64,000 nucleotides of DNA from positions 434,001 to 498,000 of the forward strand of contig NC_014506.1 in assembly GCF_000147355.1 (NCBI RefSeq), given 5' to 3'. The translations under genes and the position numbers were made by a program. The notes beneath the pieces are model-generated. The model searched no databases, had not been told where the DNA came from, and worked only from the letters and a program-made list of their open reading frames with translations. The DNA is from Sulfurimonas autotrophica DSM 16294 (lineage in GTDB: Bacteria > Campylobacterota > Campylobacteria > Campylobacterales > Sulfurimonadaceae). Of this stretch, positions 4,227 to 51,334 are shown one piece after another (positions within the stretch are counted from its first letter, which is position 1; each line of letters opens with the position of its first letter).

Positions 4227-5786
4227 CTATTTTACTTCGACTCTATTTCTTCCGTGTTCTTTAGCTTCATAAAGTGCATCGTCCGCTCGCTTTATTAATG
4301 ACTCTTTCGTATCATCTTCTTTAAAATGTGTCACTCCAAAACTTACAGTAACTTTTCCAACATCTTTAAAGTTGTATGATTCTATATTGTGTCTTAAACG
4401 CTCTACCAAAATTTGTGCTTCATCTGATGGAATGTTTGACTGAAGTATGATAAACTCATCCCCGCCCCAACGCGCAATCAAATCACTTTTTCTGATACTA
4501 TCATGCCCAATCTTAGCAATCATTTTTAGAACATCATCACCGCAAAGATGCCCATATGTATCATTTACTTTTTTAAATTTATCTACATCAAATAAGATGA
4601 CTGACAAATTTACTTTATAGCGTTTCGCCCTATCTATAGAAAATTGAAGTACTTCATCAAATCTAAGACGGTTTGAGATACCTGTCAACTTGTCAATTGC
4701 AGCTAACTCTCTAAGCTTCTCTTCCAATAACATCTGCTCGGTAACATCTTTTCCTGTTGATACAAAATAGCTTATATTACCTTTTGCATCAACAATTGGT
4801 GCAATTGCTTTGTACTCATGGTAAAGCTCACCATTTTTCTTTTTGTTTAACATATAGCTTCTGAATATATTTTTAGATAGTATAGTTGCCCATAATTCAT
4901 TTCTGTAAAAGTCAATAGAGTGCCTTCCAGATTTTACAATATTTGACTTTTTACCAATTGCCTCTTTTTTTGTAAAACCTGTTTGTTGTTCAAATGCAGA
5001 ATTTACATATTCAATAACTCCGTTTCTATCTGTTATTACAACACTATCTCCACTATGCTCAATTGCACTTGAGAGCTTCAACATATCCATTTCCGTTCTT
5101 TGTCGCAAGAGTTGAAATAAAGCAATAGCAGCAAATGCGGAGACTACACCACAAAAGGAACGAAATACCTGAACCGGCACTCCGAAGTATTCTTGAAATG
5201 TTGTGTAGTTTATAATTGAAGCCATTAATATTGGTGCTTTTGGAACAACAATTCCTGCAAAAATTCCATAAAAGAAAAAAGAAAAACTCAAAATGAATAA
5301 GTAAACTTTGGCTGAGATAAGGGTTTCAATCCCTTGTGCATCTTTTTGCATAAAAAGTACATATGAGGTTAGAAAGATTCCGGGGATACCAAATAGATAC
5401 CGTGCCCATACATTTCCTTCCAGATAGAGGTTGTCGCTTTGAAAAGAAAACACTGCAAACATCAGAAGAAGAGTGCCTACCACAAATTTAATATGGGTAT
5501 ATGATACTTTTTTTTGTTCTGAAAGAGAAATCAGCCCAAAATATAATAAAAACAGGAACGAAAGCGGTAGGATGACAAAACTAGCCATTTCAACCACTGG
5601 TGTTTTAGTCTGCTCAATGTATGCAAACATATCAATCCATTCACTTATTCCATGAATAATGCCAAACACCCCAATTAGCCAAAAATGCGCACTCAGCTTG
5701 ATAAAAGCCGACATTTTAGGATACAGCAACACTGCAAGACCAAATGAAAAAAATGACAAACCATAAATAAAATATATATAAACCAC
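4227..5786 (-). CDS. Membrane PAS-GGDEF diguanylate cyclase
   Basis: Predicted to make cyclic di-GMP from two GTP at the inner membrane. With the GTG start at 5786 it has 519 residues: about seven hydrophobic segments in the first 230, a PAS/PAC sensor at about 232-355 and a GGDEF domain at about 355-519. The active motif RWGGDEF is intact, and RKSD stands five residues before it, which is a product-feedback I-site. An in-frame ATG at 5849 would add 21 residues, but it lies inside an IS256 transposase remnant and has a poor ribosome site, whereas the GTG follows AGAGG at good spacing. No EAL domain. Signal sensed by the membrane part is unknown. Confidence 0.85.
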   Translation of the reverse strand: MVYIYFIYGLSFFSFGLAVLLYPKMSAFIKLSAHFWLIGVFGIIHGISEWIDMFAYIEQTKTPVVEMASFVILPLSFLFLLYFGLISLSEQKKVSYTHIKFVVGTLLLMFAVFSFQSDNLYLEGNVWARYLFGIPGIFLTSYVLFMQKDAQGIETLISAKVYLFILSFSFFFYGIFAGIVVPKAPILMASIINYTTFQEYFGVPVQVFRSFCGVVSAFAAIALFQLLRQRTEMDMLKLSSAIEHSGDSVVITDRNGVIEYVNSAFEQQTGFTKKEAIGKKSNIVKSGRHSIDFYRNELWATILSKNIFRSYMLNKKKNGELYHEYKAIAPIVDAKGNISYFVSTGKDVTEQMLLEEKLRELAAIDKLTGISNRLRFDEVLQFSIDRAKRYKVNLSVILFDVDKFKKVNDTYGHLCGDDVLKMIAKIGHDSIRKSDLIARWGGDEFIILQSNIPSDEAQILVERLRHNIESYNFKDVGKVTVSFGVTHFKEDDTKESLIKRADDALYEAKEHGRNRVEVK

Positions 5787-5829
5787 TAAATAAAACCTCT
5801 GATTTATTAGAATAATAACATAGATTATT

Positions 5830-5967
5830 TTAAAGGTAGTTGTAGCCATTCTTACGGTTTCTACTCAGGTCTTGTGAAAGGTAAGCATCTATCTCAGCTG
5901 CAGATGCGGCTTCGGTAAGTTGTTTTATGAGTGAGCCTAAAGCTCCGTCAGAACCGCCAATACTATA
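5830..5967 (-). pseudogene. IS256-family (Mutator) transposase remnant
   Basis: On the minus strand this stretch reads SIGGSDGALGSLIKQLTEAA, then SAAEIDAYLSQDLSRNRKNG, and then meets a stop. It resembles the N-terminal part of IS256-type transposases (a G-x-DG-x-L...LTE-A...E-x-D-x-HL...NRRNG pattern). No catalytic DDE region, no other transposase part and no clear terminal repeat are present, so it is a scar of an old insertion. It abuts the 5' end of the diguanylate cyclase gene and may have replaced that gene's original promoter. Confidence 0.65.
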
Positions 5968-46858: not shown

Positions 46859-46909
46859 TTAAGAAGGATAATATAAAATGGGAAAAAATAGTAATAGCAG
46901 GAATCTTTA

Positions 46910-48568
46910 GTGCTCGAAGTTTTTTCTGCTATATTATTGATTATTTTAGTATCAAAATTTCTTGAAGATAAAACAAAAGTACCTTTTGTACTGATTGTTA
47001 TTATCTTGGCATATATTGCAGATACATTTTTAGATTTGAGTACATTAGGAAATAATTTTGAAGAGATTATTTACCTGATGCTTCCTATCATCCTCATCCC
47101 TGATGTTTTGGGACTCTCACGCAGTGAATTAAAAGAGAATGCAGGTGATATCTTTTATCTGGCATTTGTAGCTGTTATTGTTTCTATCGCTCTAGCCGTT
47201 GGTGCGACATTTTATGTTGATACTAAATACCATTTTTCTCTCTTTGAGTTGCTGATTGTCTTTACCCCTTTAATGGCAACGGATGTTATCTCTGTGAGTG
47301 CAATCTTCGCAAAGTTCAAACTCCCTCAAAAATTAAAGTTATATGCTGAAGGTGAAAGTCTTTTTAACGATATTACGGCAATGCTTATTTTCTTTTTTAT
47401 CGCATTACCGATCTTACACGGGGATAATTTAGATTTTGCTACGCTTACACAGACAACAATTTATACAGTTGTTATTTCTGCTGTTATCGGTGTCGTGATG
47501 GGACTGGTTGGATACTACAGTTTTAAAATATCACAAAACAGTTTTGAAGAGTTTTTATCTATCTATGTAATGGCATCTATGGCTTTTTTAGTAGCCGATA
47601 AAATGCAGCTCTCGGGAATTTTATCTGTTGTCATATCTGTACTGCTTTTTAAATTTTTGTTCGATAAAGAAGGGCATTACAAGAAACGAAACTACAATGC
47701 GATCATTAAACATCTCAATACTCCAAGCAGCTTGGAGAGCTCTTTTCGTGCCTATAAAAAAGAAGCTTATTATTTGGGCCAATTTGCCAATGCTGTCATC
47801 TTCATAGCTATTGCAAATGTTATAGATTTGGATCTGCTCTTAAAATATAAGGTCGAAATTTTATATGTCTTTACTTTAACAACAATTATACGTTATATCG
47901 TTATTGTTCCTCTAGTGAAATACCGAAAACTTTCATTACTCTGGAACAATATTTTGACACTCTCTGGTATGAAAGGCGGGCTCGCACTTATTATGATAGT
48001 CTCTTTGAGTGATAATTTCGTTTATAAAGAGATGTTCTTGGCGGTTGTTCTGGGCGTTGTTATCTTGTCAATTTTCTTTTATACTATAGTTTTGATGGCA
48101 TATCTTTATACAAATAAAGACAAGCTTATTTCTGATACGGCAAAAGAACATCATCTTGAGATAAAAAATGTGCAGGATTTACTCCAAAAAGAACAACTCT
48201 CAAAAGCATATAATGAGATGGCTTTTGAAGATATTGTAGAAAAAGAGATTCAACGTGCACAACGTTATAAATATGATTTTTCGCTGATGGCGTTTCAAAC
48301 AGATGCTTTAACTGCACATCAAATTTATAAAAAGCTTGTCAGAAAAAGTGACTATTTTGGAAAAATAAATGCGCAAACCTATGCTATCTTATTAACTCAT
48401 AATGATGTTGATAACTCTTTGGAATTTGCAAATAAAATAAAAGAGCATTTTACATGTATAGAGCATATTGCTATTGCCCAGTATACAACTGGTGACAGTG
48501 TTGAGATGTTGTTTGACAAACTATATGCAGCATTATCGGATGATAAAGCGGTTGATGTAGAGATATAA
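46910..48568 (+). CDS. CPA1 cation/proton antiporter with degenerate GGDEF domain
   Basis: A 552-residue protein. Residues 1-400 form about eleven or twelve membrane helices of a Na+/H+ antiporter: TPLMATDVISVSAIF in place of the usual TDPVA, AEGESLFNDITAM and GMKGGLALIM. From about 437 it reads EIQRAQRYKYDFSLMAFQTD, VRKSDYFGKINAQTYAILLT, ANKIKEHF and a final YAALSDDKA, which follows the outline of a GGDEF domain, but the GGDEF motif is replaced and part of the first half is deleted. The start is GTG 46910 after AGGAATCTTTA; the upstream ATG at 46878 encodes only ten residues and stops. Confidence 0.8.
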   Translation: MLEVFSAILLIILVSKFLEDKTKVPFVLIVIILAYIADTFLDLSTLGNNFEEIIYLMLPIILIPDVLGLSRSELKENAGDIFYLAFVAVIVSIALAVGATFYVDTKYHFSLFELLIVFTPLMATDVISVSAIFAKFKLPQKLKLYAEGESLFNDITAMLIFFFIALPILHGDNLDFATLTQTTIYTVVISAVIGVVMGLVGYYSFKISQNSFEEFLSIYVMASMAFLVADKMQLSGILSVVISVLLFKFLFDKEGHYKKRNYNAIIKHLNTPSSLESSFRAYKKEAYYLGQFANAVIFIAIANVIDLDLLLKYKVEILYVFTLTTIIRYIVIVPLVKYRKLSLLWNNILTLSGMKGGLALIMIVSLSDNFVYKEMFLAVVLGVVILSIFFYTIVLMAYLYTNKDKLISDTAKEHHLEIKNVQDLLQKEQLSKAYNEMAFEDIVEKEIQRAQRYKYDFSLMAFQTDALTAHQIYKKLVRKSDYFGKINAQTYAILLTHNDVDNSLEFANKIKEHFTCIEHIAIAQYTTGDSVEMLFDKLYAALSDDKAVDVEI

Positions 48569-48638: not shown

Positions 48639-49034
48639 ATGAAAAGTAAAGTAGAAGAGTTCGATAAATATCTTAGAAGTTTTGATTATCAAGAACGAAA
48701 AGATATGAAAATAAAGCGTGATGAGCTTTTTGAGAGATATGCAAAAGGCGAATTGCAAATAATAGATATTCGGTTCAATGAAGAGTATGAAGCATGGCAT
48801 ATAGGATTTGGCGATCATATACCACTCAATGAGCTGCCGGATAGACTCGATGAGATAGATAAAAGCAAAACCATAGTAACGATGTGTCCTCATTACGACC
48901 GTGCTGAAATAGCACGCCTTTATTTAAAACTGCAGGGCTTTGATGCAAAATATCTCACAGATGGAATGTTAGGGCTAGTTGAAGGTTTACGTGGTGATAA
49001 AGCACGCGATTATATGAAAAAATTAAAAGACTAA
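48639..49034 (+). CDS. Single-domain rhodanese-like protein, copy 1
   Basis: A 131-residue cytoplasmic protein with a rhodanese fold: LQIIDIRFNEEYEAWHI, HIPLNELPDRLDE and the active-site loop TMCPHYDRAEIAR with Cys83. A 35-residue helical N-terminus precedes the domain. Rhodaneses move sulfane sulfur as a persulfide on this Cys. It heads a run with an FmdE-like protein, a second rhodanese and a TauE permease, under the shared operator. Confidence 0.88.
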   Translation: MKSKVEEFDKYLRSFDYQERKDMKIKRDELFERYAKGELQIIDIRFNEEYEAWHIGFGDHIPLNELPDRLDEIDKSKTIVTMCPHYDRAEIARLYLKLQGFDAKYLTDGMLGLVEGLRGDKARDYMKKLKD

Positions 49035-49054
49035 ATTAAATCAAAGGAAAAAAT

Positions 49055-49705
49055 ATGAAAACAACATTAACAAAAGTAGTTCTAGGAACAATTTTAACAG
49101 GTACATTGGCATTTGGAGGAAATCCACTCTATGAAAAAGCAGGTACTATTAATATTGTTGACCATAAGGCAATGGTAGCAGGCTCAAAAGCACCGGGACA
49201 TGATAACTTTAAGATATCTCTTGAAGATACAGGAATTATTACAGGACATATCTGTGGATGTACAACAGCTGCGTTTATTATCACTAAAAATGCACTTAAA
49301 AAACTCTACCCAAACACTACACCACTAAGACGCGGTGTTAATGTAGAGATGTCAACTTACAATATGGATATAGTTGATGCTATTACATATCTTACAGGAA
49401 CAAGATTTAATCGTGCACAAACTAATTATGACTTTATTATAGATCCAAACCTACAAGGTAAAAAAGGAACTATCACTATTAAGTTTACAAGAAAAGATAA
49501 TAAAAAAAGCGTGACTGCAGTTATAGACAGAATGAAAATATTATCTAAAGAAGAAGCAAAAGTAATCCAAACTATTAAACCAAAAGTAGGGCAACATAAA
49601 GCTACAAAACAAGAGATAATGAAACTTGCTAAAATACAGCAAGAGGTTGTGAAAAAAATAATTACAAATTTACCTCAAGGTTCTATATCATATAGCTCTA
49701 AGTAA
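49055..49705 (+). CDS. Exported FmdE-like protein
   Basis: A 216-residue protein with a signal peptide ending near LAFGG. The segment GIITGHICGCTTAAF with H65, C67 and C69, then VNVEMSTYNMDIVDAITYLTG, follows the pattern of FmdE-type domains (GHxCxG...CxVDAIQxLTG), which bind zinc or iron, although the second usual Cys is replaced by a Tyr-Asn-Met region. Periplasmic FmdE-like proteins are of unknown function. It lies between two rhodanese genes, so a link with extracytoplasmic sulfur or metal handling is suggested. Confidence 0.6.
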   Translation: MKTTLTKVVLGTILTGTLAFGGNPLYEKAGTINIVDHKAMVAGSKAPGHDNFKISLEDTGIITGHICGCTTAAFIITKNALKKLYPNTTPLRRGVNVEMSTYNMDIVDAITYLTGTRFNRAQTNYDFIIDPNLQGKKGTITIKFTRKDNKKSVTAVIDRMKILSKEEAKVIQTIKPKVGQHKATKQEIMKLAKIQQEVVKKIITNLPQGSISYSSK

Positions 49706-49723
49706 ATAGTGAAGGAGAAAAAA

Positions 49724-50086
49724 ATGAATGAATTAGCAAGAAAAATAGTACCGAGTGAAATGAACAATATGCGTATAGAGATTGAAGATTTTGTCTCTTT
49801 ATATAATGAAGGGAAATGTGAACTTGTTGATGTTCGTGTGCCTTTTGAAACAGCAGTATGGCAAGTGAATTTTGGATTAAAAATTCCGGCAAACGAATTA
49901 CCTGAGAGATTAAATGAACTGCCAAAAGACAAGCTTATTGTCGTAGCTTGCCCAAAGACTGACCGCTCTAATATGGCACGAACTTATCTTGCAAGTGAAG
50001 GTTTTGAAGTGAAGTATCTTGTAGGCGGGCTGTTAGGCTTGATGGATGCACTCAAAGGCGGAAAAGCAAAAGGGATAAAACTCTAA
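49724..50086 (+). CDS. Single-domain rhodanese-like protein, copy 2
   Basis: A 120-residue rhodanese with CELVDVRVPFETAVWQ, KIPANELPERLNELP and the active loop VACPKTDRSNMAR (Cys76). It is related to copy 1 (shared NELPxRL and CPxxDR patterns) but not nearly identical, so an older duplication. ATG 49724 follows AAGGAG; a GTG five codons upstream is in frame but overlaps that ribosome site. The TauE gene starts two bases after its stop, a typical rhodanese-TauE pairing. Confidence 0.88.
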   Translation: MNELARKIVPSEMNNMRIEIEDFVSLYNEGKCELVDVRVPFETAVWQVNFGLKIPANELPERLNELPKDKLIVVACPKTDRSNMARTYLASEGFEVKYLVGGLLGLMDALKGGKAKGIKL

Positions 50087-50087
50087 G

Positions 50088-50828
50088 ATGGAATATTATG
50101 TCATATACTTTTTCTTGACATTGGCACTCTCTACACTCTTTTCTATGGGTGGCGTAGGCTCAGCCATAGGGCTTGTTCCTATATTTTCAATGATGGGTAT
50201 GCCCTTAAATCTGGCAAAAGCCATAGGATTGTTCATAAACTCCGCTTCAACGATCACTGCATCAATTATGAACTTTTTTCGCGGTGTTTTGGATGTTGGT
50301 TTTGCGATTCCCCTGATCGTTTCCATTATGATAGCAACGCCTGTAGGTGCATGGATGAGTCAGTATGTGCAAAAAGAGATTGTGGAGTGGGTACTTGTTG
50401 CATTTTTGGTTGTAAGTGCCTTATTGCTGATATTTTCAAACAGAGAACAAAAAGTGGTCTATGACAAGGCATGGATTCTTTATGTTATAGGTGGAACTGT
50501 TGGGCTTATTTCAGGAACTATTGGTGTCGGTGGCGGTTCACTCATTATGCCGCTTTTGATTCTTTTGGGTTTTGATGCGAAAAAAGCTGCCTATGCCATC
50601 AGTTTTGTGATTCCATTTTCAACTCTTGGTGCATTTGCGACATATCTTAGTTTTGTACACATGGACTGGATTCTTTTAGGTGTCGTGACAGTGGCGGCAA
50701 TCATAGGCGGCTACCTGGGTGACAGAATTATGCACTACCGTTTAACACCTTCGCAGGTAAAAAAATTGATTGCAGTCGTATTGTTGCTGCTTGCAGCAAA
50801 AATGATCTATAAACTTATAGGAGTGTAA
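50088..50828 (+). CDS. TauE/SafE-family sulfite/organosulfur permease
   Basis: A 246-residue membrane protein with about seven or eight helices and two related halves (GGVGSAIGLVPIFSMMGMPL; GTIGVGGGSLIMPLLILLGF), matching the TauE/SafE family of anion exporters for sulfite, sulfoacetate or thiosulfate-related compounds. Its immediate coupling to a rhodanese fits a sulfur-compound substrate, which is inferred. The small-paralog gene starts two bases after its stop. Confidence 0.88.
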   Translation: MEYYVIYFFLTLALSTLFSMGGVGSAIGLVPIFSMMGMPLNLAKAIGLFINSASTITASIMNFFRGVLDVGFAIPLIVSIMIATPVGAWMSQYVQKEIVEWVLVAFLVVSALLLIFSNREQKVVYDKAWILYVIGGTVGLISGTIGVGGGSLIMPLLILLGFDAKKAAYAISFVIPFSTLGAFATYLSFVHMDWILLGVVTVAAIIGGYLGDRIMHYRLTPSQVKKLIAVVLLLLAAKMIYKLIGV

Positions 50829-50830
50829 AA

Positions 50831-51073
50831 ATGTTACATATAATGAAAAAAATAGCTATGAAAATGCTGGAAAATGAGAAAAAAGATGCTTTAGACTGTA
50901 GTGTTTCAGATGAAGTTGTTGATGAGTGGTTAGATACTATAGAAGAACGTAAAAAAAGAATGCAAGAGCATCATAAAACAGATACGGAACAGTATGATAT
51001 GCTACTGGGTGTAGAAAAAGAGGTAAAGAAGATTAAAGAGATTCGTGCAAAAAAATGTACGAAACCTGATTAG
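50831..51073 (+). CDS. Small helical protein, tandem paralog 1
   Basis: An 80-residue soluble, charged, mostly helical protein. It shares with its neighbour the pattern MLHxM..IA...ENEKK-ALDC, DEVxDEW, TIEER, EHH, EQYDMLL and a C-terminal IRAKKC, so both cysteines (about residues 23 and 76) are conserved. I do not recognise the family. It is tightly linked to TauE, so it may be an accessory to the permease or the rhodaneses. Confidence 0.7.
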   Translation: MLHIMKKIAMKMLENEKKDALDCSVSDEVVDEWLDTIEERKKRMQEHHKTDTEQYDMLLGVEKEVKKIKEIRAKKCTKPD

Positions 51074-51088
51074 AAAAGGACGTTTATA

Positions 51089-51334
51089 ATGTTACATGTA
51101 ATGGCGAGAATAGCTGATTGGCTCATTGAAAACGAAAAAAAATCCGCACTTGATTGTACTATACCTGATGAAGTTCTTGATGAATGGAGAGAGACTATAG
51201 AAGAAAGAGAGAAATCTATGAAAGAACATCATCTCAAGGGGAGTGAGCAGTATGATATGTTGCTTGAACTTGATAAAAAAGTTAAAAACTTAGAAGCGAT
51301 ACGTGCAAAAAAATGCGCGCAGAAAGAGAAGTAA
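51089..51334 (+). CDS. Small helical protein, tandem paralog 2
   Basis: An 81-residue homologue of the preceding gene, sharing roughly half of its residues, including the ALDC and KKC cysteines, DEWRETIEERE and EQYDMLLELDKKVK. The two copies have diverged enough to be an old duplication. It ends the run; a strong hairpin follows ten bases later. No function assigned. Confidence 0.7.
   Translation: MLHVMARIADWLIENEKKSALDCTIPDEVLDEWRETIEEREKSMKEHHLKGSEQYDMLLELDKKVKNLEAIRAKKCAQKEK

Follow-up and report, generated by a model that had tools for sequence, protein, structure and literature searches.

A CPA1 antiporter of Sulfurimonas autotrophica fused to a degenerate GGDEF domain, a candidate c-di-GMP receptor

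PelD of Pseudomonas aeruginosa and Bacillus cereus contains a membrane-anchored, catalytically dead GGDEF domain that binds c-di-GMP by an RxxD motif, equivalent to that of the I-site, plus a downstream basic residue, an Arg; mutating these residues abolishes binding (PMC7112168). PelD, whose GAF-GGDEF part lies behind the membrane part, controls the synthesis of the Pel polysaccharide. The c-di-GMP I-site of PleD is made up of R359 and D362 (the RxxD motif), R390 and, from the neighbouring domain, R313 (PMC7288161); DgcR fills the same role with a non-homologous arginine (PMC8041772). In active cyclases, two GGDEF domains are held together by (c-di-GMP)2, which cross-links them via the primary and secondary I-sites (PMC8041772). 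Cation transport under the control of nucleotides is also known. In the bacterial transport proteins CpaA and KtrA, c-di-AMP acts at a C-terminal cytoplasmic RCK_C (RCK/TrkA_C) domain (PMC7288161), and in the eukaryotic sperm Na+/H+ exchanger SLC9C1, cAMP or cGMP is bound by a C-terminal CNBD located behind a voltage-sensor domain (PMC6052114). An ammonium transporter with a C-terminal GGDEF domain is represented in the PDB (8qj3, 8qj4, 8qpf).

The protein described here, encoded in a 64,000-nucleotide stretch of DNA from S. autotrophica (the window), resembles each of these systems in part. Its core shares the fold, the ND motif and the TM10 arginine with PaNhaP, MjNhaP1, SOS1 and NHE, none of which has a GGDEF tail. 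Its tail shares the GGDEF fold and the I-site with PleD, WspR and DgcR, which are active diguanylate cyclases whereas the active site of the tail is lost. As in PelD, a dead GGDEF domain is anchored to the membrane and combines RxxD with a downstream basic residue, but the putative output is ion antiport, and the short form of the tail has a deletion of the guanine-binding segment. The nucleotide-sensing domain, putative in the fusion, is C-terminal as in SLC9C1. As in CpaA and KtrA, this cytoplasmic domain is proposed to control transport in response to a cyclic dinucleotide, although both the domain and the nucleotide differ. The ammonium transporter-GGDEF protein has the same arrangement and belongs to a different transporter family. 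No description of a fusion between a CPA1 or other antiporter and GGDEF was found in the open-access literature searched. The parts are known; their combination appears to be new.

The gene and its antiporter core

The features are as follows; residue counts refer to 24 fused relatives, the window protein included.

46910..48568, + strand: entire gene for the fusion of a CPA1 antiporter with a degenerate GGDEF domain, 552 amino acids, GTG start (ORF calling, homologue alignment)
46910..48103, + strand: CPA1 transmembrane core, residues 1-398, with the signature T124-D125, E149, N153-D154 and R328 (Pfam, homologue alignment, Foldseek)
48107..48190, + strand: helical linker, residues 400-427 (lower model confidence; the first 20 residues modelled for the tail have a pLDDT of 58-59)
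48191..48565, + strand: degenerate GGDEF domain, about residues 428-552 (profile searches, AlphaFold2 model, structure search)
48254..48256, + strand: R449, aligned to PleD R313 of the secondary I-site (22/24 relatives)
48341..48352, + strand: R478-K-S-D481, RxxD motif of the primary I-site (R in 21/24, D in 24/24 relatives)
48368..48382, + strand: NAQTY (487-491) replacing GG(D/E)EF, with loss of the catalytic loop (GG(D/E)EF in 0/24 relatives)
48434..48436, + strand: K509, aligned to PleD R390, the basic I-site residue (K or R in 23/24)

The GTG start agrees with homologues that open with 'MLEIF...'. Pfam Na_H_Exchanger matches residues 10-396 of the core with an E value of 1.2e-25, and 14 fused homologues show no variation at T124-D125, E149, N153-D154 or the TM10 arginine R328. 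The protein thus has the Na_H_Exchanger core, the ND motif on TM5 and the Glu/TM10-Arg pair by which CPA1 members are recognized (PMC9408914). In Foldseek searches the full-length model (pLDDT 82.5) matches SOS1, PaNhaP, NHE and SLC9C1. Since the signature residues are invariant in the fused homologues, the exchanger part is expected to work, presumably by exchanging Na+ (or K+) for H+.

Immediately upstream lies a micro-ORF of 11 codons, stop included (46878-46910, + strand; ATG GGA AAA AAT AGT AAT AGC AGG AAT CTT TAG), preceded by AAGGA. Its stop codon TAG overlaps the GTG start of the antiporter (TAGTG), an arrangement that possibly reflects translational coupling or may be due to chance.

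The GGDEF tail and its I-site residues

An earlier note on this DNA had read the gene as a CPA1 core fused to a degenerate GGDEF domain. The Pfam match of the core, the profile comparisons and the predicted fold of the tail bear this out, except that the domain begins earlier, at about residue 428 and not at about 437. In single-sequence searches, the tail matches GGDEF models below the curated cut-off (Pfam 1.3e-4; TIGR00254 2.3e-6, with the tail alone as the query). When the 24-member tail family was compared by hhalign with 30 GGDEF domains of the same genome, P was 2e-26; a PDB search with the tail profile retrieved diguanylate cyclases at E values down to 6e-23, and 22 of the 24 family members matched Pfam GGDEF individually. 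AlphaFold2 modelling of residues 400-552, with fused-family sequences as the only input, yielded a model with a mean pLDDT of 89 and a pTM of 0.79, in which strands and helices follow the GGDEF order. The best match is 3ign, a GGDEF domain with c-di-GMP (Foldseek E 3e-9; VIA-align Z 18.1, 1.7 Å over 131 residues); PleD 2wb4 (likewise bound to c-di-GMP; Z 17.2, 1.7 Å over 128 residues) and LapD (Z 16.9, 2.5 Å over 139 residues) also align with the model in VIA-align. All matches listed for the model by Foldseek and VIA-align are GGDEF domains. The model and the hhalign result together assign to the tail the palm fold of the GGDEF superfamily. The two outcomes that the earlier note had named as speaking against its reading, an unrelated fold and an RCK/TrkA-type tail, were not obtained: no RCK family exceeded the Pfam threshold for the protein, and no RCK/TrkA-type domain is among the structure matches listed, which are not exhaustive. 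A chance or sub-threshold resemblance of the tail to GGDEF is ruled out by the profile-profile, profile-sequence and structure comparisons.

The absence of the GGDEF signature and the shortening of the first half of the domain, both noticed earlier, correspond to NAQTY at the GG(D/E)EF position and to the lack of the segment with FKxxND..GH..GD. Two forms of the tail occur in the family, a long one and a short one, in which the guanine-binding helix is deleted, as in the window protein. Residue conservation was compared among three sets, and fractions are given in this order: 30 active GGDEF domains and 20 other domains of this kind that are degenerate or score weakly, all from the same genome, and the antiporter-tail family. 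The equivalent of N335 is kept at 1.00/0.90/0, that of D344 at 1.00/0.60/0.04, the second G of GGDEF at 1.00/0.55/0, and the equivalents of E370 and K442 at 1.00/0.70/0.25 and 1.00/0.60/0.12, respectively. The residue equivalent to the metal ligand D327 is D or E in 46% of the tail family. The tail therefore has neither the combination of GG(D/E)EF loop, metal ligands and guanine-binding N and D that characterizes active diguanylate cyclases nor the GTP pocket of GTP-sensing degenerate GGDEF domains of the CC3396 type. Judged by these residues, the tail is catalytically dead, its GTP/catalytic site lost.

The residues of the I-site show a different pattern. R478-K-S-D481, which the earlier note had listed as RKSD without recognizing it as the RxxD motif, sits five residues ahead of the position once held by GGDEF; R449 and K509 were assigned to R313 and R390 of PleD by sequence alignment. 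With RxxD at this position and a basic residue at that of PleD R390, the tail has the sequence features of PelD-like I-site receptors. In the same order as above, the R of RxxD is kept at 0.87/0.20/0.88 and the D at 0.90/0.25/1.00, the R313 equivalent at 0.47/0.20/0.92 and the R390 equivalent at 0.67/0.40/0.96. The whole motif occurs in 25 of the 30 active domains and in 4 of the 20 other degenerate domains, which implies that the fold itself does not need RxxD. A Fisher test of 21/24 against 4/20 gives a P of about 1e-5, a value that overstates the evidence because the 24 relatives share ancestry and are not independent. By these counts, the tail family keeps the putative I-site at the rate of active enzymes despite having lost catalysis. 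Since RxxD is common in active enzymes, it may have been inherited by the tail rather than selected. The I-site arginine is replaced in three relatives, by Pro (L004), Gly (L044) and Ser (L093); two of the three belong to the subclade of the window protein, so that a role of c-di-GMP may not be universal in the family. Y434, G484, D529 and K537 are invariants specific to the tails.

Distribution, selection and gene neighbourhood

Full-length fused homologues were found in 13 of 135 genomes of the genus of the window. Of 397 genomes sampled across its phylum, 12 have such a homologue, as do 7 of the 63 genomes from the Thiomicrospira order and 4 of the 369 Gammaproteobacteria sampled. There is one full-length copy per genome at the threshold used; a Halothiobacillus MAG is among the loci. 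The fusion is thus sporadic in Campylobacterota, in other members of which the earlier note had suggested looking for it, and in sulfur-oxidizing Gammaproteobacteria. Homologue scores are bimodal, the remaining matches being antiporters without the tail. A search of plasmids yielded a core-only antiporter in Sulfurovum and nothing else. In a tree built from core columns alone, the 23 tailed proteins lie on one side of a branch with an SH-aLRT of 99, and core-only relatives from the same bacteria occupy separate branches, a topology that fits a single origin of the fusion. The short tail is found in the window protein, several Campylobacterota and Gammaproteobacteria of the Thiomicrospira type; the presence of this clade in two phyla suggests horizontal transfer. 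The dN/dS ratio of the tail is 0.03-0.09 in six of seven close pairs and 0.19 in one, that of the core 0.02-0.09, values that indicate purifying selection on the tail. Every sampled clade member has the tail, and in most the C-terminal sequence is similar to I(D/E)(I/V)E(I/V). A pseudogene or decaying tail was rejected on account of the dN/dS ratios together with the conservation of the tail across the clade.

In the window, the neighbours of the antiporter encode a cation-efflux protein, a VIT1 protein, a TAT-exported CT0912-like protein, rhodaneses and a TauE protein. The genes directly downstream (48639-50828, + strand), two rhodanese-domain genes around an FmdE-like gene followed by a TauE/SafE-type exporter, are likely a sulfur-related cluster. 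Beside the TauE gene, two adjacent small ORFs of 80 and 81 amino acids (50831-51073 and 51089-51334, + strand) are clearly similar to each other and represent a tandem duplication. The diguanylate cyclase with an I-site that the earlier note had placed in the window is indeed present (4227-5849, - strand; PAS-GGDEF with RKSD-x5-GGDEF), but it is 41 kb from the antiporter. With about 50 GGDEF domains encoded in the genome, this cyclase is not specific evidence for the ligand of the tail. A paralogue of it elsewhere in that genome (G000:C1:1054371-1054832, L112) has an almost identical GGDEF domain over the stretch compared.

Neighbourhoods vary between lineages, and no conserved partner gene was found among the compared loci. 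Locus L146, in the genome G414 of the window's genus, has the same neighbourhood as an uncultured Sulfurimonas MAG (L033). At most loci, the window among them, the fusion is not adjoined by a c-di-GMP gene; in L145, L156 and L160 its neighbour is a GGDEF-EAL or GGDEF gene. In L145:4048-10826 (- strand), a relative from another family, genes for RR-GGDEF-EAL, ODP(beta-lactamase-like)-GGDEF, the antiporter-GGDEF fusion and a DUF1538 protein lie on the same strand; in L160, a PAS-GGDEF-EAL gene is located 51 bp upstream of the fusion on the same strand, an arrangement repeated in L161. With loci grouped by hand and expected counts taken from the gene density in the window's genome, a GGDEF gene occurs within 6 kb of the fusion at 7 of 13 loci (P about 0.05) and directly adjacent to it at 3 of 13 (P about 0.02), a weak and at most suggestive enrichment of GGDEF/EAL genes. 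GGDEF domains joined to periplasmic binding domains of the phosphonate or NMT1 type are encoded near a fused antiporter in L156:4122-6005 (+ strand) and L150:231-2663 (- strand).

Possible functions of the tail

We favour the interpretation, with a probability of roughly 0.55, that the degenerate GGDEF tail is a c-di-GMP receptor which binds its ligand through the retained I-site and gates the CPA1 Na+/H+ (or K+/H+) antiporter. CPA1 antiporters are homodimers, as described for PaNhaP (PMC4381880), so that a fused dimer would present two tails. At high c-di-GMP, an intercalated (c-di-GMP)2 would connect the RxxD in one tail with the secondary site in its partner, as modelled on inhibited PleD and DgcR; by analogy with these enzymes, the two tails of the dimer are probably cross-linked in this way. 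The cross-linked tails would be fixed, which would alter exchange activity via the linker that follows the last transmembrane helix. The response could be activation or inhibition.

The earlier note had left the choice between GTP and c-di-GMP as the ligand. Conservation of the four I-site positions makes c-di-GMP much the likelier of the two. GTP binding and ATP hydrolysis have been described for some degenerate GGDEF domains (PMC7288161), and the tail might likewise use its former active-site pocket to sense a nucleoside triphosphate, GTP or another, as do proteins of the CC3396 or YybT/GdpP type. This is improbable given that the equivalents of N335 and D344 are deleted or replaced, the GG(D/E)EF loop and most of the metal ligands at the D327 and E370 positions are lost, and the short form, to which the window protein belongs, is without the whole guanine-binding segment. 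A similarly low probability, if marginally higher, attaches to a signal running in the reverse direction, in which the antiporter domain would sense Na+ or pH and control the tail or a bound partner cyclase, like the transporter-GGDEF fusions. The tail profile does match the GGDEF part of 8qj3/8qj4/8qpf, in which the molecule is named 'Ammonium transporter', but the tail is without the residues needed to make c-di-GMP, and the residues of the transport motifs are conserved as expected of a working exchanger.

More serious, although still unlikely, is the possibility that the tail binds no ligand and serves as a dimerization or docking module that stabilizes the dimer or recruits an active diguanylate cyclase or phosphodiesterase, the I-site residues being kept for structural or protein contacts. 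The loss of catalysis predicted for the tail would suit such a module, the four family-specific invariants may form a protein interface, three members are without the I-site arginine, and at three loci a GGDEF-EAL or GGDEF gene adjoins the fusion. Against it stand the usual loss of RxxD from the other degenerate GGDEF domains of the genome and the retention of the second-site basic residues more often than in active enzymes. That the tail is a decaying relic devoid of function is very improbable: its strong divergence from the GGDEF consensus would be in keeping with decay, but dN/dS ratios mostly close to those of the core speak strongly against it, as does the retention of the tail, in most cases with a similar C-terminus, by every sampled clade member.

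The c-di-GMP receptor interpretation leads to a broader proposal, which we advance tentatively and at somewhat less than even odds: the fusions would form an antiporter family gated directly by c-di-GMP via a truncated GGDEF tail of which only the I-site is left, linking the messenger of the motile/sessile transition to Na+ and pH homeostasis in sulfur-oxidizing chemolithotrophs. The tail represents a natural GGDEF domain reduced to its regulatory site, with the catalytic pocket deleted and the residues of the allosteric site kept, and a construct of it is compact and lends itself to established assays of binding and of exchange in vesicles. Should c-di-GMP bind the tail and alter exchange, ion transport would be under the direct control of c-di-GMP, comparable to the control of potassium transporters by c-di-AMP and of SLC9C1 by cyclic nucleotides, and a biofilm/motility signal would be tied to sodium and pH homeostasis in bacteria of vents and sediments.
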